30,199 nt of DNA from a virus, in the IMG/VR virus record IMGVR_UViG_3300035660_001478, positions 1 to 30,199 of that record. One strand, 5' to 3'. Below are positions 4,325 through 30,199 of this stretch, piece by piece (the first letter of the stretch is position 1; each line of letters starts with the position of its first letter). The notes under the pieces were generated by a model, which ran no database searches, was not told the origin of the DNA, and saw only the letters and a list, made by a program, of their open reading frames with translations. The position numbers and the translations under genes are program-made.

Positions 4325-4551
4325 GCGGAAGGCAGGAGAAAAAAATCAGGCGGCTATTCAGGAAAAGATACAGCGACGAGTTCTTCAGGCAGATAGTTCA
4401 GGGCCAGTTTTTCAGGCAGTTCATAAAACCGAGGCCGAAGTGGTGCCCGGAATTCCTGTGGATGTTTTTATTAAAGATCGTAATCAACGTAAATTTTCAA
4501 AATGGAAATAAAGCTGATAAAAATCGGGGAGATAAAAAAACAGATTTGTAG
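4321..4551 (+). CDS. Small basic hypothetical protein, 3' end altered by HNH insertion
   Basis: The 76-residue product is basic and aromatic, with repeated phenylalanines. Its start overlaps the upstream stop (ATGA). The last 17 residues or so are read from DNA that is also the beginning of the HNH gene, and composition becomes AT-rich there. The original C-terminus has therefore probably been replaced when the nuclease gene arrived. No domain recognised. Confidence 0.45.
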   Translation: MSGRQEKKIRRLFRKRYSDEFFRQIVQGQFFRQFIKPRPKWCPEFLWMFLLKIVINVNFQNGNKADKNRGDKKTDL

Positions 4552-5128
4552 AAAGTGTAATAAGATAAAATTATTAAATGATTTTTATTTTAGAAATGAT
4601 AGTAAAAAATATAGAACAATTTGTATTTCCTGTTGGCACAAAATAATTAAAGAATATAGAGAAAACAATAAAGGAAAAATAAGAGAAATGAAATTAAAAT
4701 GGCAAAGAAATAATCCAAAAAAAAGACAAGAAATAAATAAACGATATTTGATTAAAAATAGAGAAAAAATCAATAAATATAATCGGGACTATAAAAGAGA
4801 AAAACAGAGTTTGAATGTCCGTCTTATTGCTAATTGTCGGTCAAGAATATGGAAAGCATTAAAAGGTGTTAATAAATCTATACATACTATTTCTTTTTCT
4901 TTGATAGGTTGTGATATTGAGGAATTAAAAAAACATCTTGAACAACAATTTAAAGATGGAATGAATTGGAATAATTATGGAAAATGGCACATTGACCATA
5001 TTAAGCCTTGTTTAAGTTTTAATTTATTAGACCAAAAACAGATTTTGAAATGTTTTAATTATAAAAACCTTCAACCATTATGGGCGAAAGAAAACAGATT
5101 GAAAAACAACCTGATAAACAGGGGATAA
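4502..5128 (+). CDS. Free-standing HNH homing endonuclease
   Basis: The 208-residue protein starts with a CxxC zinc-ribbon-like region (CRKCNKI and CISCWH), has a very basic middle, and ends in an HNH nuclease domain: WHIDHIKPC, then CFNYKNLQPLWAKENRLKNN. This layout is common in phage HNH nucleases. The gene is strongly AT-rich compared with flanking genes. It overlaps the preceding gene by 50 bases and the following small terminase by 49 bases, so its own active-site end encodes the neighbour's start. It probably spreads by cutting phage genomes lacking it at the terminase junction. Confidence 0.85.
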   Translation: MEIKLIKIGEIKKQICRKCNKIKLLNDFYFRNDSKKYRTICISCWHKIIKEYRENNKGKIREMKLKWQRNNPKKRQEINKRYLIKNREKINKYNRDYKREKQSLNVRLIANCRSRIWKALKGVNKSIHTISFSLIGCDIEELKKHLEQQFKDGMNWNNYGKWHIDHIKPCLSFNLLDQKQILKCFNYKNLQPLWAKENRLKNNLINRG

Positions 5129-5508
5129 CAGGGCGAGATGAACGAGGGAGATGGGTATCGGGAATTTCAGGAAATCCTTATGGGAGACCAAAATTTTCTC
5201 TTGTTTCAATTTTGGGTGAATTATTACAAGAAATTCCAGAAGGAGAAAGAGAAATAAAAGCAAGACAACTAATGAAAAAAGCCATTGATATGGCAATGGG
5301 CGGGGATACTGCTATGTTAAGAGACATAATTAACCGAATTGACGGGATGCCGAAGGAGAAGATCGAGATGGAGGGCGAGATCGAGCACAGGGAAAACAAA
5401 CTAATTGATTTGTTAAAAGATGCAAATAAAGAGACAAGAAAAAAAGTTGTTGACGGCTTTATTGAAATCCTCAGAGAGAGAAGGGGTAGAGGTGGCGTAT
5501 CAAAATAA
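5080..5508 (+). CDS. DUF5681-type protein, probable small terminase subunit
   Basis: Residues about 20-38 read GRDERGRWVSGISGNPYGRP, the signature of DUF5681 proteins, which often stand directly before large terminase genes and are thought to act as small terminase or DNA-recognition subunits. The rest is helical and charged. The first half is AT-rich like the HNH gene just upstream, then the sequence turns GC-rich at about 5341, as if a conversion tract entered the gene. The C-terminus overlaps the large terminase start. Packaging-site binding is inferred, not visible. Confidence 0.7.
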   Translation: MGERKQIEKQPDKQGITGRDERGRWVSGISGNPYGRPKFSLVSILGELLQEIPEGEREIKARQLMKKAIDMAMGGDTAMLRDIINRIDGMPKEKIEMEGEIEHRENKLIDLLKDANKETRKKVVDGFIEILRERRGRGGVSK

Positions 5509-7678
5509 CCTGCCGTTTTTTATCGAGGAGGAGATTTACGAGTATGATTCTGAGGCAAAAAAAGAGGGCTGGAGGCTGGGAGAATTGCATAAAGAGTGGA
5601 ATGATATTTTGGAGTTAAAAAGGATTTGCATCAAGGCGCCGAGGGATCATCTGAAAACATTTTTCTTTTCTGAAAGTTATCCGGCGAGAAGGATGAGATT
5701 TAATCCGGACGACGAGATCCAGATATTCTCAAAGACGGACAAGCTGGCGGTGAGGATTTTGGATAAAATAAAAAAGAGAATTTTTAAGAATCCCAATCTG
5801 GAATATCTGGGGGGGAAGGGCGCGGACTTCTGGTCGAAGACAGAGATTAGGTGCTCCAACGGGGCGACAATCTACGCGCAGGGGTTCTGGTCTGCCATCA
5901 GGGGAGGGCACCCGAGGCTGATCATCATGGACGACGTGATCGATTCGCAGGTGGTTTATTCCGACGAGCAGAATGAGAAGGCGAAGGAGAGGCTGGCCGG
6001 CGAGGTGTTGCCTATGGCCGAACCTGACACGCAGATCATTATGGTCGGGACCCTGCAGAGGGAGGACGACATTTATTCTGCGGTTGACAGAAAGAACTGG
6101 TTTGTCAAAAGTTATGACGCGATTCTGGACGAGGAAAAAAAGATTACTTTGTTTCCGGAAAAATGGGACTGGGAAAAGTTGATGAGAAGGAAGGAGGAGA
6201 TCTCGGCTTTGAAAGGCGAGAAATGGTTCTTAAAAGAGTATCGGAATTTTCCAGTAAAACTTCTTGGCGAAATCATAAAAAAAGATTGGTTGCAGTGGTA
6301 TGACGAATTGCCGGCGGGTCTGAGAATTTACACCGGCTGGGATCTGTCGGTCGGGAAGGAATTAGACAAGGGAGACTACACCGCCTGCATCACTTTCGGG
6401 ATTGATGATAAGGGAAACATTTTTATCATCAGGGTCTGGAGGGAGAGGATTGATTTTCCGACGAGGCTGAAAAAAGTGGTGGAGTTTGCTGGATTTGATA
6501 AATCTTTAAAAATCAGGATCGAGTCAAATACTTTTCAGGCCGATTCGGTCAAGGTCCTGATCGACAACACCGCCCTGCCCATCGAGGGGGTGAAGACAAC
6601 GGAAAACAAAATAAAAAAGTTTTCCGAGATACTGGCGCCTCTTTTTGAAAACAGGAAGGTGTTTCTGAAAAGGGGCGACGAGATGCACCAGATATTTGCG
6701 GACGAGCTGTGCAGTCTGCCGAGGGGAAAATATGATGATATGTGCCTAATAGGAAATACCAAAATTGCTACTTTATTTGGGGACAAAGAAATTAGGAATA
6801 TCAAAAAAGGGGAAATGATAATTACTCCATTTGGTTTACGAAAAGTGTTAGAAGCAAAGGCAACAGGAAAAAAAGAAATAATAGAAAAAATTGGATTAAA
6901 AGGAACAGGCAATCATCCAATTGTTGATATCAAAAATAAAGAATTCTGCCCTCTTGACGCATTTTGTATTGGTGATAATATAGTAAGTAGATTGAAACTT
7001 AAAGAGATAATTTTATGGCAATACCAAAAACTATTATTTTTAATGGGAAAAAATACCAACTCATGGGCGGGAAAAGAAAGTATTATCTTAGTTTCTCAAC
7101 AACAAATAAAGGGCGGAAAAATCCTAAAGGACTTCATGTGGCAGTTTGGGAATTTTATAATAAAAAAACAGTTCCAAAGGGCTATATTATTCACCATAAA
7201 GATGGGGATACTTTTAATAATAACATTAGCAATTTGGAGTATATATCAAGGGAGCAACATTTTAAAATCTCAAAAAGAATTGATATTGAAAAAATTAAAA
7301 GACATTTGGCAAAAATTAGGTTATTGGCTACGAAATGGCATAAGAGTAAAGAGGGAAAGGAATGGCATCGGGAACATGCAAGAAAACAATGGGGTAAATC
7401 AAGAAAAAGCAAAGGAAAATGTAAATTATGCGGAAAAGAATTTTGGTCATATAAAAATAGAGGAAAAGAAAAACTATATTGTAGCCGAAGATGTTATTTT
7501 AAAACAAACAAAAAACGAGATAGAAAAGGAAAATTTATTTGAAGTGTATAATTTGTTAATTGATAAAGATAGAGTTTATTATGCCAATGGAATACTTGTC
7601 GGCAATTGCGATGCCCTTTGCATTGGGTTAAAAGATGTAATGTTTCGCGACTATGATTTAAGAACTATTGGTATTTAA
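5492..7678 (+). CDS. Large terminase subunit containing an intein
   Basis: The ATPase part shows a Walker A-like APRDHLKT and a Walker B LIIMDD; the nuclease part shows TGWDLSVG (motif I), RIESNTF (motif II) and YDDM|CDA (motif III). The intein at 6743-7606 splits motif III, so packaging requires splicing. An in-frame ATG at 5420 would overlap the small terminase by 89 bases; the GTG at 5492 has AAGGGG 5-6 bases upstream and a 17-base overlap, so I chose it. The extein parts before the intein are GC-rich, and the part after it is AT-rich. The enzyme pumps DNA into the prohead through the portal encoded next. Confidence 0.87.
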   Translation: MAYQNNLPFFIEEEIYEYDSEAKKEGWRLGELHKEWNDILELKRICIKAPRDHLKTFFFSESYPARRMRFNPDDEIQIFSKTDKLAVRILDKIKKRIFKNPNLEYLGGKGADFWSKTEIRCSNGATIYAQGFWSAIRGGHPRLIIMDDVIDSQVVYSDEQNEKAKERLAGEVLPMAEPDTQIIMVGTLQREDDIYSAVDRKNWFVKSYDAILDEEKKITLFPEKWDWEKLMRRKEEISALKGEKWFLKEYRNFPVKLLGEIIKKDWLQWYDELPAGLRIYTGWDLSVGKELDKGDYTACITFGIDDKGNIFIIRVWRERIDFPTRLKKVVEFAGFDKSLKIRIESNTFQADSVKVLIDNTALPIEGVKTTENKIKKFSEILAPLFENRKVFLKRGDEMHQIFADELCSLPRGKYDDMCLIGNTKIATLFGDKEIRNIKKGEMIITPFGLRKVLEAKATGKKEIIEKIGLKGTGNHPIVDIKNKEFCPLDAFCIGDNIVSRLKLKEIILWQYQKLLFLMGKNTNSWAGKESIILVSQQQIKGGKILKDFMWQFGNFIIKKQFQRAILFTIKMGILLIITLAIWSIYQGSNILKSQKELILKKLKDIWQKLGYWLRNGIRVKRERNGIGNMQENNGVNQEKAKENVNYAEKNFGHIKIEEKKNYIVAEDVILKQTKNEIEKENLFEVYNLLIDKDRVYYANGILVGNCDALCIGLKDVMFRDYDLRTIGI
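7015..7542 (+). CDS. HNH homing endonuclease nested out of frame inside the intein
   Basis: This 175-residue ORF lies one base back (-1) from the terminase/intein frame. It has an HNH_3-like core (VAVWEFYNKKTVPKGYIIHH with His60/His61, then DGDTFNNNISNLEYISREQH) and a C-terminal zinc finger (Cys136, 139, 156, 160). It begins after the N-terminal Hint segment and ends with TGA at the edge of block F, exactly where in-frame intein endonucleases usually sit. Its own ATG has only a weak purine stretch upstream. A GGGAAAA heptamer at 7045 could also feed it by frameshifting. It probably cuts intein-less terminase genes to drive homing. Confidence 0.85.
   Translation: MAIPKTIIFNGKKYQLMGGKRKYYLSFSTTNKGRKNPKGLHVAVWEFYNKKTVPKGYIIHHKDGDTFNNNISNLEYISREQHFKISKRIDIEKIKRHLAKIRLLATKWHKSKEGKEWHREHARKQWGKSRKSKGKCKLCGKEFWSYKNRGKEKLYCSRRCYFKTNKKRDRKGKFI
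7045..7051 (+). other. Candidate -1 frameshift heptamer GGGAAAA in the intein
   Basis: In the terminase/intein frame the codons are ATG GGA AAA AAT, so G GGA AAA fits the X XXY YYZ rule. A -1 slip enters the HNH frame at about its residue 11, before the HNH core. The product would be terminase N-part plus Hint N-part plus HNH. The codons also encode Gly-Lys-Lys in the HNH protein, so chance is possible. Confidence 0.4.
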
Positions 7679-7889: not shown

Positions 7890-7917
7890 TTGACAAGCCT
7901 TCTTAGTTTTCTATAAT
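7890..7917 (+). promoter_or_regulatory. Consensus sigma70 promoter upstream of the portal gene
   Basis: TTGACA at 7890-7895 and TATAAT at 7912-7917 are both perfect matches, with a 16-base spacer. Transcription would start near 7924, producing a leader of about 105 nt that ends in a terminator directly before the portal start codon. Confidence 0.8.
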
Positions 7918-7922
7918 TAAAC

Positions 7923-7984
7923 AAGGAGCAAGTATTAAAAATTTATTTTATAGCCCTGAGTTGTTAGTCAATAGGGGCTCATGA
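7923..7984 (+). promoter_or_regulatory. Portal leader: possible leader peptide and antiterminator strand
   Basis: AAGGAG at 7923-7928 is followed, five bases later, by an ATT codon opening a 16-codon frame that stops at TGA 7982-7984 inside the terminator stem. AGCCC at 7952-7956 can pair with GGGCT at 7975-7979, which is also the left arm of the terminator. The two pairings exclude each other. The ATT start is non-standard, so translation of this frame is speculative. Confidence 0.35.
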
Positions 7985-8028
7985 TTGAATCTGATTTTTT
8001 TCAGATCTAATCATGAGCCCTTTTTTTT
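7975..8028 (+). terminator. Strong intrinsic terminator touching the portal start codon
   Basis: GGGCTCATGATT at 7975-7986 pairs perfectly with AATCATGAGCCC at 8009-8020. An inner 6-bp helix (7989-7994 with 8001-8006) closes a T6 loop. Eight Ts follow at 8021-8028, and the portal ATG begins at 8029. There is no room for a Shine-Dalgarno sequence between the hairpin and the start codon. Confidence 0.88.
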
Positions 8029-10194
8029 ATGGCTAAATTAAATTTTTTAGACAAAATATTAGGGACGCTTGGATTGATCAGAAAAAAGGCGGCCGATTTT
8101 CCTTTGGTTTCGGGTGCCGGGATTTCCGATTTCATTATCGGCGGCGGGGTGAGGATACCAAAATCCAAACTTCTGGAGAACAACAAGAACTGGGTTTTCA
8201 GTTGCGTCAGGGCGAGGGCCGAGGCGGTCGGAAACATCAAACTGAAAATGTTCGAGAAGAAAAAAGACGGGACGGTTGCCGAAGTGCCGGAGCACGAGTT
8301 GCTCGATCTCTTGGCGGCGGTCAATCCTTTCATGACGCAGTTCGAGTGCTTTGAAATGCTGGAGAGCCATCTTGACCTGACGGGAAACGCTTATTGGTAT
8401 CTGGACGGGGTGAAAAATTATGGCGACAAGCCTACGGCAATCTATCCTTTGAATCCGAAGTATGTCGAGATTAAAAAAGGCAGGTTGCCGAATTTTATTG
8501 ATGAGTATAGGTATACGGTCAATTCGGTAGTCCAGATCATCAAGCCGGAGCAGATACTCCATTTCAGGGAGGCCAATCCCGATGACCCTTACGAGGGCAG
8601 GGGGATTTTGGAGGCCATTGCCCACTGGGTTGACGCGGACAACTATGCGACGGAATGGAATCGGACTTTCTTTCTGAACGCGGCGAGGCCCGATGCGACT
8701 CTGGAGCACGAGGCGGACCTGAGCGCGGAGCAGATGAACTTTCTGAGGGCTTCGTTTGAGGATACTTACCGGGGCGTTGAGAAAGCTCATAAGGCCCTGA
8801 TACTGCCGAAGGGTGTAAAGTTTTCGCCGGTCGGCTGGAACCAGAAAGAGATGGACTTCGTGGAGATGCAGAGAATGACGAGGGACAAGATTCTGGCCGG
8901 GTTCAGGGTGCCGAAAACCATACTGGGTTTGACTGAGGATGTCAACCGGGCGAACGCAGAGGCGTCTAACTATGTTTTCGCTTTGAGGGTCATTAAACCT
9001 CAAATGGAAAGAATCGTCGGTTATATAAACGAGTTCTTGGTGCCGAGATACGGAGATAATATTTTCTTGGATTTTGAGGATCCGGTGCCGGAGAACAGGG
9101 AACTGGAATTGCTTGAAAACGAGAAGGCTCTGGGAGCTCAGGCTTACGCATCGGTCAACGAGATCAGGGAAAAAGAAGGGTTGCCTCCTATCGAGGACGG
9201 AGATTCAGTGATGACCAATTTTTCTCTATTGCCCCTGGGCAAGCCGATCGAGAAAACAAAAACAAAACCAAATATTAAAAATCAAATGAAACCTTCTGTC
9301 AGGTTCTCGAGGAACCTGAAAAAGAGGAAGGAGATAGGGGAGCTGATCGCCAAGGAGGCGATGAGCATCGTGAGGGAGAGCGCCAAAAAAATCCTCGACA
9401 AGCTGGACGAGGAGAGATGGGAGATTTTGTGGAAGGCGTTCGTGGCCAGGGTGACGCCATACGAGAAGACGCTGGCCGGAAAAATAAAATCATTCAACAA
9501 GGATCAAAAAGAAAAAGTCATTAAAAAACTGGAGGGCAAAATAAAAGCAGTAAAAGCACCTGAGGATTTCGGGGATCTGTTCAATGGCGACGAGGAGGTT
9601 TCGATTCTGATCGACGGCATCACGCCAATCCTGAGAGAGCTTTACCAAAAAGAGGGAAAGGAAACTTTGGACCTGATAGGGATGGGCGAGGCGTTTGAGG
9701 CCTCTTTGGAGAGGGCGAGAAAAAGCCTTGATGATGCGATCTCTCTGATGTCCGAAAGCTACAATGAAACAACTTTGGATCTGCTAAAAGAAAAGTTAAA
9801 AGAAGGCCTGCAAAATGGCGAGAGTCTGCCGGAGCTGACAAACAGGATCAGGGACGTCTATGAGTTCTCTGACCAAGTCAGGGCAGAGAGGGTGGCGAGG
9901 ACTGAGGCTTTCAGAGTGGCCAACTCTGCTACAAGGGAGGCGTGGAGGCAGTCGGGAGTGGTAAAGACTCTGAAATTCTATACCGCGGCTGATGAAAGTG
10001 TTTGCCCTGTTTGCGCCGCTATGAATGGAAAAATCGTAGGAATAGAAGAAGAATTCTTTAAACCGGGAGAGGAAGTTGCGGGAAGTGATGGAAAGAAATA
10101 TCAACTTTCCAGTTATAGTGATGGTATGACGCCCCAAGATTTACATCCAAATTGCAGGTGTTATTTGAGACCTGAGACTATAAATATCGAATGA
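8029..10194 (+). CDS. Portal protein fused to MuF-like head morphogenesis domain
   Basis: The 721-residue protein combines two head genes. Residues about 1-420 resemble HK97-family portals, including NWVFSCVRARAEAVGNI and a long central region with FRVPKTILGLTEDVNRANAEA. Residues about 430-560 are helical and charged. The C-terminal 150 residues match the Mu gpF/SPP1 gp7 family: ERVARTEAFRVANSATREAW, DESVCPVC, and LHPNCRCY, whose Cys/His residues probably bind metal. The portal ring is the DNA entry channel; MuF proteins are minor head proteins. The start follows a terminator's T-tract and has no ribosome-binding site. The 3' end overlaps the convergent nuclease gene by 34 bases and becomes AT-rich there. 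Confidence 0.88.
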   Translation: MAKLNFLDKILGTLGLIRKKAADFPLVSGAGISDFIIGGGVRIPKSKLLENNKNWVFSCVRARAEAVGNIKLKMFEKKKDGTVAEVPEHELLDLLAAVNPFMTQFECFEMLESHLDLTGNAYWYLDGVKNYGDKPTAIYPLNPKYVEIKKGRLPNFIDEYRYTVNSVVQIIKPEQILHFREANPDDPYEGRGILEAIAHWVDADNYATEWNRTFFLNAARPDATLEHEADLSAEQMNFLRASFEDTYRGVEKAHKALILPKGVKFSPVGWNQKEMDFVEMQRMTRDKILAGFRVPKTILGLTEDVNRANAEASNYVFALRVIKPQMERIVGYINEFLVPRYGDNIFLDFEDPVPENRELELLENEKALGAQAYASVNEIREKEGLPPIEDGDSVMTNFSLLPLGKPIEKTKTKPNIKNQMKPSVRFSRNLKKRKEIGELIAKEAMSIVRESAKKILDKLDEERWEILWKAFVARVTPYEKTLAGKIKSFNKDQKEKVIKKLEGKIKAVKAPEDFGDLFNGDEEVSILIDGITPILRELYQKEGKETLDLIGMGEAFEASLERARKSLDDAISLMSESYNETTLDLLKEKLKEGLQNGESLPELTNRIRDVYEFSDQVRAERVARTEAFRVANSATREAWRQSGVVKTLKFYTAADESVCPVCAAMNGKIVGIEEEFFKPGEEVAGSDGKKYQLSSYSDGMTPQDLHPNCRCYLRPETINIE

Positions 10195-18725: not shown

Positions 18726-19358
18726 ATGACAAAAACTGTTGGCTGGGCATTAACAACCCTGGAAAGGGTGAAGGCTCGCCTGGGCATAAAGGAGACTGGT
18801 TTTGACATCCTGATCGAGCAGTTGATAAATAGTATTACCGATTGGATTGAGGGACAATGCGGAGGAAGAAGATTCAAAAAAACGACCTACACCAACGAGA
18901 TCCACGACGGCTCGCAGCCTGCGGCAATAGGAGAAGGCAAAAAAAGGTTTCTGTTGCTGAAGCATGCGCCTATCACGGCCCTGACTTCTTTCCAATATAA
19001 CGGCGGAACGATCGGCTCGCCATCTTGGACGAATTTCAGCACGGAAGAATATCAATTACTTGATAAGGAGGGAATGATTTATATTCTGGGAACTTTGCCG
19101 AGGGGTTTCAGAAACATCAGGGCTACTTATGACGCTGGATTTCTTATTGATTTCGCGAACGAGACGGACACGGTAAAACACAATCTGCCTTTTGATCTCT
19201 CCAACCTGGCCGAAAGATTGGTTGTTAAGGAGTTCAAGAGAAGGGAGGAGATTGGAAAATCGGGAGAGTCGCAGGGCGACGCGACTGTCAGCTTCTTTGA
19301 TCATCTCGAGGAGGAGGACAAGGCGGTGCTGGCGAGATATAACAGAATCATTTTTTAA
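18726..19358 (+). CDS. HK97 gp6-like head-tail connector
   Basis: The 210-residue protein resembles HK97 gp6-family adaptors: the N-terminal helices (LTTLERVKARLGIKE, ILIEQLINSITDWIEGQCG) are followed by a strand region (KKTTYTNEIHDG, RFLLLKHAPITALTSF) and C-terminal helices (LSNLAERLVVKEFKRREEIG). Such proteins form a ring between the portal and the tail. Its place after the capsid genes and before the gp10-like protein matches the standard siphovirus order. Confidence 0.75.
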   Translation: MTKTVGWALTTLERVKARLGIKETGFDILIEQLINSITDWIEGQCGGRRFKKTTYTNEIHDGSQPAAIGEGKKRFLLLKHAPITALTSFQYNGGTIGSPSWTNFSTEEYQLLDKEGMIYILGTLPRGFRNIRATYDAGFLIDFANETDTVKHNLPFDLSNLAERLVVKEFKRREEIGKSGESQGDATVSFFDHLEEEDKAVLARYNRIIF

Positions 19359-19362
19359 AAGC

Positions 19363-19914
19363 ATGCCGACGGGAATTTATTTACATAGATCTGGCTGGCG
19401 ACATTCTGAAGAAACAAAGAAAAGAATGAGCGAAGCCCATATAGGGAAAATTGGTGTTCTTTCGATGTTAGGTAAAAAACATTCGGAAGAGACAAAAAGA
19501 AAAATGAGTGAAATTCATAAAAGAATTGGATCTCCTTGGTTAATAGGACGGCATCTTTCCGAAGAACAAAAAAAGAAAATAAGTGAAGGAGCGAAAAGAG
19601 TCGGGAATGGAAAATGGATGTTAGGAAGAACATTACCAGAAGAAGTCAAATTAAAAATAAAGGAATCACTGCCGAAAGGAGAAGAACATCATTACTGGAT
19701 GGGAGAAAAAGTAAGTTATCGGGCATTACATAGTTGGGTTCATAGATGGCTTGGTTCGCCTAAAAAATGTATTTTTTGCGGGAAAGAAAAAACAACTCCC
19801 AAAAGCATTCATTGGGCGAATAAAAGTGGTGAATATAAAAGAAGTTTAGATGATTGGATTCAGCTTTGCGCAAAATGTCATAAAGAATATGATTTAAATT
19901 TATGTCAAATATAG
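19363..19914 (+). CDS. NUMOD3-containing homing endonuclease
   Basis: The 183-residue product begins with repeated NUMOD3 DNA-binding units (HSEETKKRMSEAH, HSEETKRKMSEIH, LSEEQKKKISEG, LPEEVKLKIKES), each a short helix-turn. The C-terminal part has two CxxC pairs (CIFCGKEK, CAKCHKEY) with conserved His/Trp residues of an HNH-like nuclease (ALHSWVHRWLG, SIHWANKSG). The gene is AT-rich, starts four bases after the connector gene and overlaps the gp10-like gene by 13 bases. It is a mobile gene lodged at the connector junction. Confidence 0.82.
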   Translation: MPTGIYLHRSGWRHSEETKKRMSEAHIGKIGVLSMLGKKHSEETKRKMSEIHKRIGSPWLIGRHLSEEQKKKISEGAKRVGNGKWMLGRTLPEEVKLKIKESLPKGEEHHYWMGEKVSYRALHSWVHRWLGSPKKCIFCGKEKTTPKSIHWANKSGEYKRSLDDWIQLCAKCHKEYDLNLCQI

Positions 19915-20801: not shown

Positions 20802-21290
20802 ATGGGACGAAATAAAGGATATCATCATTCAGAAGAAACTAAAAAGAAAATAAGTGAGGCATTAAAGGGAAGAATTTTTACAATGGAACATAAAAGAAAA
20901 ATTGGTGAAGCTAACAAAGGTAAAAAATATCCGCATTCTGAAATAACAAAATTAAAAATGAGTCAAGCCCACATAGGAAAACGATTATCCGAAGAATGGA
21001 AAAAAAAGATTAGTAAAGCACTTGAAGGGAAGAAATCTTATTTATGGAAAGGAGGAAGAATAAGAAGAAAAGGATATATTTTATGTTTAAAAAAAGAGCA
21101 TCCATTTAGTTGGAAACAAGGGTATATTTTTGAACACCGCTTAGTGATGGAAGCGGAATTAGGTCGCTACCTTTTGCCCCGTGAGGTAATCCATCATATC
21201 GACGGGGATAGGTCGAATAATGAAATAGATAATTTAATGCTTTTTGGCTCTTGGAAAGAGCACAGAAAATATCATTGTTATGCAAACTAA
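20802..21290 (+). CDS. NUMOD3-HNH homing endonuclease
   Basis: The 162-residue protein starts with three to four NUMOD3 units (HHSEETKKKISEALKG, MEHKRKIGEANKG, HSEITKLKMSQAHIG, LSEEWKKKISKALEG) and ends with an HNH_3-like domain: IFEHRLVMEAELGRYLLP, EVIHHIDGDRSNNEIDNL and HRKYHC. It is AT-rich and lies in a seven-base gap after the tail terminator gene. Its NUMOD3 region is similar to that of the enzyme at 19363, suggesting shared origin. Confidence 0.87.
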   Translation: MGRNKGYHHSEETKKKISEALKGRIFTMEHKRKIGEANKGKKYPHSEITKLKMSQAHIGKRLSEEWKKKISKALEGKKSYLWKGGRIRRKGYILCLKKEHPFSWKQGYIFEHRLVMEAELGRYLLPREVIHHIDGDRSNNEIDNLMLFGSWKEHRKYHCYAN

Positions 21291-26966: not shown

Positions 26967-26996
26967 TAAGGAATATTATTAAATCCTTAATTATAT
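26960..26996. promoter_or_regulatory. 13-bp inverted repeat overlapping the -10 box and start codon
   Basis: TATAATTAAGGA at 26961-26972 is the exact reverse complement of TCCTTAATTATA at 26984-26995, and a further A/T pair (26960, 26996) extends it. The left arm contains the -10 box and an AAGGA ribosome-binding-like sequence; the right arm runs into the ATG. It could be a repressor operator or an RNA hairpin hiding the start region. Confidence 0.6.
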
Positions 26997-27534
26997 GAAA
27001 AAAGGAACAAAACACACATCAAAATCAATCCAAAAAATAAGAAAAGCAAAATTAAAAAATCCTACAAGATACTGGCTTGGAAAGAAAAGAAACAAAAAGA
27101 CGATTGAGAAAATAAGAAAAATAAAATTAGAATATTATGGGAAAGGGAATGCTCCATGGAATAAAGGAAAAAGATGCCCCTGGGCGAAGAATAACCCTCA
27201 GATATTTAAAAAAGGACATATCAATTCGTTAAAACAAAAAGAAATTGCTCGACAGATGTGGTTAGGAGATAAAAATCCAAGATGGAAACCGATAGGGAGC
27301 AAGAGAATGAATCACGGATATATTTTAGTCAAAATAGATGAGCATAAATGGGTGAAGGAGGAGTGGATTATCGCTGAGAAAATGCTGGGAAGAAAACTTT
27401 ACAGAGACGAAGTTGTCCATCATATCAATGGAAACAAAAATGATAACCGCCCAGAAAATCTGCGAGTTATGACGAAAGACGAACACAAAAAACTTCATTT
27501 AAAAGATAACTTATTATGGCAAATGAAATTTTAA
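26995..27534 (+). CDS. HNH homing endonuclease with its own promoter
   Basis: The 179-residue protein has basic NUMOD-like helices (KSIQKIRKAKL, KKTIEKIRKIKLEYYG) followed by WNKGKRCPW, and an HNH_3 core: WVKEEWIIAEKMLGRKLY, EVVHHINGNKNDNRPENL, DEHKKLHLKD. It is AT-rich. It overlaps the following gene by 19 bases, so its last residues (LLWQMKF) and the neighbour's start share DNA. The promoter and palindrome just upstream suggest control separate from the tail operon. Confidence 0.87.
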   Translation: MKKGTKHTSKSIQKIRKAKLKNPTRYWLGKKRNKKTIEKIRKIKLEYYGKGNAPWNKGKRCPWAKNNPQIFKKGHINSLKQKEIARQMWLGDKNPRWKPIGSKRMNHGYILVKIDEHKWVKEEWIIAEKMLGRKLYRDEVVHHINGNKNDNRPENLRVMTKDEHKKLHLKDNLLWQMKF

Positions 27535-28709: not shown

Positions 28710-28732
28710 TTTTGAGTTCTTTTAAGGCAAAA

Positions 28733-28801
28733 GGGCAGGCCTCTCCGGGCGGTCGTAATGACCAAATTTTAACTCCTTTCTCCTGCGGGGACGACCTGCC
28801 C
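28733..28801 (+). other. Long-range stem in the 3' part of the late region
   Basis: GGGCA (28733-28737) pairs with TGCCC (28797-28801), and GGTCGT (28751-28756) pairs with ACGACC (28791-28796). Together these give 11 pairs with a bulge of about 13 bases on the left. No T-tract follows. It could be an mRNA end structure or a protein-binding site. Confidence 0.35.
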
Positions 28802-28811
28802 TGCCATTTCA

Positions 28812-28940
28812 ATGCGGAAAAAAGAATTGATTAAAAAATTGAAAAGGATTGGCAAGATTAAATTTTACATCCCCAAACCGAGAAGTAAGGGGAACGGGGT
28901 TTGGAAAAGGATAAAAAAGAAATTGACAAAATCGGTGTAA
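28812..28940 (+). CDS. Small very basic hypothetical protein
   Basis: ATG 28812 to TAA 28938 encodes 42 residues with many Lys/Arg (for example MRKKELIKKLKRIGKIKFY and VWKRIKKKLTK). The composition could suit nucleic acid binding. It is too short and biased to be sure it is translated. It fills part of the otherwise gene-free stretch between 28710 and 29266; the rest holds the stem at 28733, the terminator, promoter, operator and integrase leader. Confidence 0.35.
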   Translation: MRKKELIKKLKRIGKIKFYIPKPRSKGNGVWKRIKKKLTKSV

Positions 28941-28991
28941 TATTTTCTGGTTTTTTCCGTCTTATAAATAAAGACTAAAGTGAGAGATCTC

Positions 28992-29024: not shown

Positions 29025-29053
29025 TTGACAAAGTTATTGGGTTGTTTTAGTAT
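29025..29053 (+). promoter_or_regulatory. Promoter for integrase leader
   Basis: TTGACA at 29025-29030 is a perfect -35 match; TAGTAT at 29048-29053 matches four of six -10 bases with an ideal 17-base spacer. Transcription would begin near 29060. Confidence 0.65.
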
Positions 29054-29063
29054 TTGAATACTA
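29048..29063. promoter_or_regulatory. Palindromic operator overlapping the integrase -10 box
   Basis: TAGTATTTGAATACTA is a perfect inverted repeat of 7-bp arms with a 2-base centre. It covers the -10 hexamer, so a bound dimeric repressor would block the promoter. No repressor gene is in the window. Confidence 0.6.
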
Positions 29064-29071
29064 AATCCGTT

Positions 29072-29183
29072 ACCCCTTTTCAGGGGTTTCAGTGGTGCAA
29101 CGGGTGGGAGTTATGGTAAAATACAAATGCCATAATAGAAGTTCGAAACTTTTATTATGCGCGGCCGCCTCTTAGCACCACTG
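29072..29183 (+). ncRNA. Structured integrase leader RNA
   Basis: Several perfect or near-perfect helices can form: ACCCC/GGGGT (29072-29076 with 29083-29087); TTATGGTA/TGCCATAA (29111-29118 with 29128-29135, one G-T pair); a 12-bp hairpin at 29132-29158 with a CGA loop; and a long-range 9-bp helix CAGTGGTGC/GCACCACTG (29090-29098 with 29175-29183). The last arm is the loop of the terminator hairpin. The second and third helices share bases and exclude each other. No known RNA family is recognised. Confidence 0.55.
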
Positions 29184-29200
29184 AGAGGCGGTTTTAGTTT
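29165..29200 (+). terminator. Intrinsic terminator before the integrase gene
   Basis: CCGCCTCT (29165-29172) pairs perfectly with AGAGGCGG (29184-29191), and TTTTAGTTT follows. Nine of the loop's eleven bases can pair with an upstream strand, giving a pseudoknot or an antiterminator. Confidence 0.75.
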
Positions 29201-29266
29201 GGAGGAATGAAAGGTCGATGGTTAAAAAAAAGGTTTGTCGCTTTGGGAGGGAGCGAAAGGAAAAAT

Positions 29267-30199
29267 ATGAAATTTATAGAAGCTCTTAATAAGTTCAACG
29301 AGTGGAGGGGACTCAAGGTCGGCAAGGGGACGGTGATGGGATATGATATGTCCCTCCGGTATTTCTGCATCTTCGTGAGAAACGCCGAGATAGAAGAAAT
29401 AAAATTGGGGGACTGCGTGGAGTGGCTGAAGTGGATTAGGGATCTGGGGTTTGATATAACCACTTTGGAAAAGAAAGCCATTGCTCTTAAAAAGTTCTTT
29501 GAGTTCTGGTGGCAGCAGGGAAAATCAGTGATCAATCCTTGTTTGATTCCTTTGCCACCCAAGCAATTCAAATTTCCGAGAGTGGCAAGCGAGGAAGATT
29601 ATAGAAAGGTGCTGGGTGTCATTCCAGAAAATTCAGGATACTACTGGCACATAAGAAACCGGGCCCTGATCACTTTGCTGTGGGACAGCGCGGCCCGGAT
29701 CGGAGAGGCGCTTTCTTTGAATATCAAAGATACTGATATGGTGAATAAAAAAGCTGAAATTCACACCGAGAAAACAAAAGGATTTACTCCTTTTCGCCGA
29801 ATTTTTTGGACTGAAGATACCAATAATAATTTGATCAGATGGATTGAAAGAAGAAAAAGAGAACTGACGATGTGGAATCTGAAAGAGATCAAAGACCCGG
29901 ACGCGCTTTTTATCAGCATCCACGGCGGAAGGGGGAGCTGTATGGGTAGGTCAAACAGAATGGAGAGGGCGGCCGTTACGGAAATGATAAGGAAGTATTC
30001 AAATAAAGCCGGATTGGAAAGGCCATTGAATCCCCACTCTATGAGGCATCATCGCGGCAGGGAACTGGCAATGCAAGGGGCGAATAATTCCGTGATCTCT
30101 TCCATTTTGGGCCACGCCAATTTAGCCAGTTCCTATCCCTACACGGCGCTTGCCGGTAAAGACTTGGAAAGCCAATTTAGGAATTATGTCGGGAAATAG
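29267..30199 (+). CDS. int: Tyrosine recombinase (phage integrase)
   Basis: The 310-residue protein has an N-terminal core-binding domain (FIEALNKFNEW to about residue 95) and a catalytic domain with Arg144 (SAARIGEALSL), a Lys in EKTKG (169 or 171), His257 and Arg260 (HSMRHH), His283 (LGHAN) and Tyr292 (SSYPYT, nine residues after His283 as in XerD). All active-site positions are present. The frame is open from 29207, but GGAGG there is one base from the ATG, while the ATG at 29267 has AAAGG six bases away, so I chose 29267. It integrates and excises the phage DNA. No attachment-site repeat is visible. Confidence 0.9.
   Translation: MKFIEALNKFNEWRGLKVGKGTVMGYDMSLRYFCIFVRNAEIEEIKLGDCVEWLKWIRDLGFDITTLEKKAIALKKFFEFWWQQGKSVINPCLIPLPPKQFKFPRVASEEDYRKVLGVIPENSGYYWHIRNRALITLLWDSAARIGEALSLNIKDTDMVNKKAEIHTEKTKGFTPFRRIFWTEDTNNNLIRWIERRKRELTMWNLKEIKDPDALFISIHGGRGSCMGRSNRMERAAVTEMIRKYSNKAGLERPLNPHSMRHHRGRELAMQGANNSVISSILGHANLASSYPYTALAGKDLESQFRNYVGK

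Follow-up and report, generated by a model that had tools for sequence, protein, structure and literature searches.

A conserved structured RNA upstream of the integrase gene in phages of Patescibacteria, probably a two-state switch

The analysed viral DNA, referred to as the window (30,199 nt in total), closes with a gene for a tyrosine recombinase, the integrase (int), and a leader of about 210 nt lies between a promoter-like box and this gene (Table 1). A conserved N-terminal extension of the integrase starting at 29207 was rejected, since the ATG at 29267 is the one start that the two closest relatives, L002 and L003, have in common with the window. The -35 box of promoter 1 occurs in both at the same position, and shuffled sequences contain matches of the TTGACA-17-TAGTAT type no less often. 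Its -10 box is covered by a palindrome that could serve as an operator, and -10-box palindromes of different sequence are also found in L037 and L039-L042. The record ends exactly at the int stop codon, as do those of L062, L066 and L068, which is probably due to the trimming of predicted proviruses and not to biology.

The leader is predicted to be highly structured. Its segment 29060-29206 folds with -58.9 kcal/mol (z = -5.4), and none of 200 shuffles reached an equally low value. Directly before int, a hairpin at 29163-29193 is followed by the tract TTTTAGTTT, the arrangement of an intrinsic terminator. The initial annotation had described two inner helices with common bases, and these are present: TTATGGTA/TGCCATAA and CATAATAGAAGTT/AACTTTTATTATG overlap at 29131-29135. 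It had also reported a terminator loop complementary over 9 bases to a strand 77 bases upstream. The match is perfect, but it comprises 10 bp, with TCAGTGGTGC (strand A, 29089-29098) and GCACCACTGA (A', 29175-29184) lying 76 nt apart. An equally long distant inverted repeat was obtained in 15 of 3000 dinucleotide shuffles of 29060-29206. A scan of terminator-like hairpins in four phage records showed a 10-bp upstream partner solely for those in the int leaders of the window and its two close relatives. The pairing had been proposed as either a loop pseudoknot or an antiterminator. Since A' overlaps the upper part of the terminator stem, the full 10-bp pairing competes with the hairpin and does not merely add to it.

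Table 1. Features of the integrase leader and of the portal leader in the window
Feature	Position	Strand	Basis or remark
Portal leader	7891-8029		Strong promoter, very stable terminator directly before the portal gene; short competing AGCCC/GGGCT pairing
Promoter 1 (promoter-like), TTGACA-17-TAGTAT	29025-29053	+	Same -35, same position, in L002 and L003
Palindrome TTTAGTATTTGAATACTAAA over the -10 box, candidate operator	29046-29065	.	Inverted-repeat listing
P1 5' strand CCGTT (strand 1)	29067-29071	+	Pairs with 29099-29103; compensatory CCATT/AGTGG in L002
P1a hairpin CCCC-TTTTCA-GGGG	29073-29086	+	ATCC/GGAT in L002; CCCGAAAGGG in most relatives
Strand A, TCAGTGGTGC	29089-29098	+	Displayed inside P1, 3' side
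P1 3' strand AACGG and flank (strand 2)	29099-29107	+	Can lengthen A:A' via 29165-29174
Hairpin TTATGGTA/TGCCATAA	29111-29135	+	From sequence; shares bases with the next hairpin; L002 counterpart folds
Extended -10-like box TATGGTAAAAT, possible internal promoter downstream of A	29112-29122	+	TG.TA...T enrichment
13-bp hairpin CATAATAGAAGTT/AACTTTTATTATG	29131-29159	+	Inverted repeat and fold
Terminator 5' strand B (strand 3)	29163-29175	+	TCT/AGA to CG/CG in L002
A', GCACCACTGA, apex of the terminator hairpin	29175-29184	+	Complementary to A
Terminator 3' strand B' (strand 4) and U-rich tail TTTTAGTTT	29181-29200	+	Terminator scan
GGAGG after the terminator, then stretch up to the int start	29201-29266	+	Sequence kept in L002 and L003
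Integrase (tyrosine recombinase)	29267-30199	+	Pfam PF00589, 1.9e-23; start at ATGAAATTT, not 29207

A search with the integrase of the window alone yielded two relatives, and an alignment including L010, a relative with 42% identity, opened the family. This search returned about 35 more loci from IMG/VR and from genomes of Kerfeldbacteria, Taylorbacteria, Nomurabacteria and other Patescibacteria. Relatives with integrase identities of 32-93% have the same leader plan in other sequences: a P1 stem, a P1a hairpin (often CCCGAAAGGG), sometimes a P1b, then A and the P1 3' strand, and, after a spacer, a hairpin that adjoins the int start codon and carries A' in its loop. In L002 (integrase 92%), A and A' are kept, while both sides have changed in P1 (CCGTT/AACGG to CCATT/AGTGG), in P1a (CCCC/GGGG to ATCC/GGAT) and in the terminator stem (CCGCCTCT/AGAGGCGG to CCGCCCG/CGGGCGG). 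The leader of L003 (integrase 87%) has an almost wholly different sequence, and its A (CAGCGGCGAG) is still complementary to the terminator interior over 10 bp. Further A/A' pairs are GATGCTAA/TTAGCATC (L041), GATGCTAC/GTAGCATC (L037), GATGCTAG/CTAGCATC (L042), GAGGCAAA/TTTGCCTC (L024) and GTGCGACC/GGTCGCAC (L068), and the distance from A to A' ranges from about 40 to 190 nt across leaders. Four to five loci depart from the plan; L029 and L034 have short leaders that lack A, and L022 and L026 do not clearly fit. Searching other genomes with a covariance model of the P1 domain (R1) brought up int leaders, some of them from a second integrase subfamily (L079, L080) that has its own matched A:A'. 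The initial annotation had recognised no riboswitch or ncRNA class, and a search of the window and 20 relatives against Rfam 15 agrees with it, as one tRNA, among the relatives, was the only match at gathering score. In INPHARED, there was no DNA match to the leader, and the integrases of known phages reached only about 26% identity among the matches listed. The leader is an uncatalogued, strongly conserved RNA structure in phages and prophages of Patescibacteria.

A and A' were assigned in 35 leaders, partly by eye and by complementarity, so that their 100% pairing arises by construction. For this reason, swaps between loci are the tests that count and provide independent evidence. With automatic detection, the terminator loop matched its own upstream region over a mean of 7.64 nt, compared to 5.42 ± 0.18 nt for swapped loci. 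The extension helix, in which the 22 nt following A pair with the 24 nt preceding A', involves stretches that played no part in defining A; it reached -11.4 kcal/mol against -8.4 ± 0.55 kcal/mol for swapped loci, a difference not attained in any of 20,000 permutations (25 representatives). Strand 1 with strand 4 gave a weaker signal in the swap test (p about 0.01). The covariation in homologues that had been suggested as a check is found: in 16 divergent leaders, all 12 pairs (7/7 in A:A' and 5/5 in P1) changed on both sides, with a covariation score of 1.20 compared to 0.25 in shuffles. Kinship between the phages inflates some of the counts in this analysis. An alternative helix that excludes the terminator is therefore conserved by covariation, as in an antiterminator, and together with the swap tests of A:A' and of the extension helix this supports the earlier proposal that mutually exclusive pairings form a switch. 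The fold z-scores of the leaders lie between -3.9 and -7.0. Hairpins with GNRA or UNCG tetraloops number 34 on the sense strand and one on the antisense strand, compared to 1.2 in shuffles. This restriction to one strand indicates that selection acts on the sense RNA and not on a DNA palindrome.

The helix of A, the P1 3' strand and its flank with the hairpin 5' strand and A' is incompatible with P1 and with the terminator. Between the two states, the gap in computed energy has a median of 1.4 kcal/mol and does not exceed 6 kcal/mol in 27 of 35 leaders, the totals ranging from about -22 to -114; pseudoknots and co-transcriptional folding are left out of account in these values. Folding to minimum free energy gives the antiterminator for the window, L041 and L028, and the terminator for L002 and L024. 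Helices that exclude each other at nearly equal computed energies are characteristic of a switch, and a switch between antiterminator and terminator is the reading with the best support. As a structure, it is well supported by the pairings, their conservation, the covariation and the near-equal computed energies; the outcome as termination or read-through, the direction and the trigger are what we infer. It is likely that the leader acts as a bistable RNA switch controlling integrase expression, and this RNA structure probably decides whether the phage makes integrase.

In the OFF state, strand 1 would pair with strand 2, forming P1 and leaving A exposed, and strand 3 with strand 4, forming the hairpin at int, which is the U-tailed terminator in the window. 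In the ON state, A, the P1 3' strand and the flank would pair with A' and the terminator 5' strand. This helix would open both P1 and the terminator, and RNA polymerase could read into int. The order of synthesis would favour A:A' as a toehold, with A free in the P1 junction and able to catch A' before the terminator 3' strand exists. The hairpin of L030 has no U-tract, and many relatives have a short one inside a longer stem adjoining the start codon, which suggests that the hairpin may block translation instead of ending transcription.

Attenuators of the trp type and riboswitch expression platforms likewise consist of four strands with two exclusive pairings and a U-tailed hairpin before the gene. 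In contrast to these, strands 2 and 3 of the leader are separated by a structured spacer of 40-190 nt with an internal promoter-like box, the nucleus is the pairing of a strand with the terminator loop, there is no leader peptide or known aptamer, and the controlled gene is a phage integrase. With the candidate structures STAXI and Lacto-int (Weinberg et al. 2010, PMC2864571), the leader shares its occurrence in phages or close to integrase genes. STAXI, however, is a tandem pseudoknot thought to function perhaps as single-stranded DNA (PMC2864571), and the leaders match no Rfam 15 family. Fully complementary loops of 7-8 nt, as in L030, L032 and L068, recall the kissing control of pT181 and ColE1, but the pairing RNAs of those systems come from opposite strands of the same DNA, whereas A and A' are located on one strand.

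The spacer itself contains further features. The pattern TG.TA...T occurs directly after P1 in 14 of 34 leaders, compared to 3.5 ± 1.6 in shuffles and one on the other strand, and the extended -10-like box may be a promoter on this basis. Transcripts starting there would lack A and hence could only terminate. Perfect palindromes (e.g. CCCTAGCTAGGG, CCGCCACGTGGCGG, AAGTCCGATCGGACTT) are present in the spacers of 17 of 35 leaders against 1.9 in shuffles, among them L021, L024, L027, L037, L041, L049, L050, L062 and L068. An RNA dimerisation site or a DNA operator are candidate readings for them.

Strand A is also found at early operons in several phages (L028, L030, L023 and the Taylorbacteria group). 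The phage of L028 has a 13-nt copy of A before its first early gene, and that of L023 has a 10-nt copy, GGATGCGACA, near the early genes. In the phage of L030, an early hairpin carries the 7-nt loop UACGACC, which is complementary to the int hairpin loop GGUCGUAC, and the start codon of an early gene of about 100 AA is covered by the complete P1+A domain in the Taylorbacteria group. One possible, though doubtful, explanation is antisense control of the type known from phage P4, in which an RNA with the A' loop, made from an internal promoter or by processing, would act in trans by pairing both with the A of the int leader and with the second A at the early operon, and would keep both off in the prophage. 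CI RNA of P4 pairs with seqA and seqC, upstream and downstream of the CI RNA (PMC4825925), and the order A - A' - int - A resembles seqA - CI - seqC (PMC4825925). Same-strand complementarity is common to both systems, and so, probably, is a part in lysogeny control; in L028, L030, L023 and the Taylorbacteria group, one pairing segment would likewise lie between an upstream and a downstream target. In P4, however, the targets are replication genes and a processed RNA is required, whereas the leader has a cis antiterminator and its trans RNA is hypothetical. Consistent with such control, the internal -10 box is enriched, the P1+A copy at the early gene has the same variable base as the int leader of its genome in 5/5 cases, and a genome's own A recurs over 10.0 nt compared to 8.86 ± 0.22 nt for swapped genomes (21 records), a result driven mainly by a few phages. 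Against it, related phages have both A sites by descent, and L002, the closest relative of the window with an early region, has no second A of at least 8 nt there; the window stops before its own early region. The recurrence of A at early operons suggests a link like that of the P4 CI RNA. A wider version, which is rather unlikely, would be an A/A' code linking the int leader, the terminator loop and the early operon into an RNA network for lysogeny versus lysis, P4-like, within the bistable integrase switch and with an RNA 'immunity' specificity for each phage.

The R1 covariance model also finds further copies of the P1 domain in the same phages. In the manner of ribosomal proteins acting on their own mRNAs, a phage protein might bind P1+A, repressing at its own start codon in the early gene and keeping P1 closed in the int leader. 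This would agree with the P1+A domain over the start codon of the early gene of about 100 AA in seven loci, with its presence in the int leader of the same genomes, and with the conservation of the P1a sequence itself (CCCGAAAGGG). It is nevertheless improbable, since the early gene is missing from most phages with the leader, including that of L030, whose second copy keeps A and not P1, and since the protein has no Pfam or PDB match and only a poor structure model (pLDDT 55). Either an RNA network or a shared binding protein would explain the second copies. The early protein (VTYRR.GIPA.ILEGKWLT...) with the P1+A domain over its start codon is encoded in L065 (5161-5511), L081, L082, L087, L098, L099 and L100. 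A SymE/AbrB-like appearance was noticed by eye and not relied on, given the model quality (pLDDT 55).

A promoter, a compact fold and a terminator would also yield a stable small RNA of about 140 nt whose gene merely ends at the terminator and has no control over int. We consider this improbable as well, because the antiterminator helix engages the 5' strand of the terminator itself, which a plain small RNA would not need, and because the leader nearly always lies directly before int. That the leader is a DNA site adjoining int, either attP or a set of arm sites for the integrase in which A and A' would be bound by protein as inverted repeats, is very improbable in view of the strand-specific GNRA/UNCG loops, the variable spacing between A and A' (about 40 to 190 nt) and the prophages G003, G009 and G785, which start at the 3' end of the host gene gap, with a copy of this gap end downstream of int in G003.

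The attP reading of the leader was rejected, since the repeated host sequence of G003, the gap 3' end, is found downstream of int and not in the leader, which places attP elsewhere. Prophages at the 3' end of gap, the host GAPDH gene, are seen in L019 (1200-1292), L010 (4080-4160), L098 and L087. The attachment site of this prophage group thus appears to lie within the glycolysis gene gap. As to tRNA-directed integration, L034 alone among 36 loci has a tRNA next to int, on its upstream side.

Temperate phages are reported to be dominant in groundwater Patescibacteriota (PMC12911398), and no description of the control of lysogeny in phages of Patescibacteria was found in the literature in the open part of PubMed Central. 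With the leader, a new structured RNA of wide conservation comes to light at the gene on which the temperate state of a phage depends, and in phages whose hosts can hardly be cultivated. As the leader RNA can be tested outside the host, in vitro and with E. coli reporters, the question becomes approachable.

The initial annotation had drawn a parallel to the leader of the portal gene. This parallel is weak: the portal leader likewise has a strong promoter, and its terminator is very stable (z = -5.2), but no strand complementary to the loop was seen. Upstream of the int leader, a second structured stretch is located at 28722-28812 (z = -2.2 and -4.2); it is retained in L002, with its stem changed from GGGCAGG/CCTGCCC to GGGCGG/CCGCCC. 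In the window, it is followed at 28813-28941 by a short, very basic ORF of about 42 AA (MRKKELIKKLKRIGKIKFYIPKPRSKGNGVWKRIKKKLTKSV), which is kept in L002 and possibly encodes a nucleic-acid binding protein. By eye, the ORF at the terminase position (5420-7678) contains an intein-like stretch (CLIGNTKI...HPIVD... YYANGILVGNC), and an ORF in another frame (7015-7542) has the look of an HNH-type endonuclease. Further ORFs resembling, likewise by eye, free-standing HNH homing endonucleases are scattered in the late region at 4502-5128, 19192-19914, 20802-21290 and 26995-27534.
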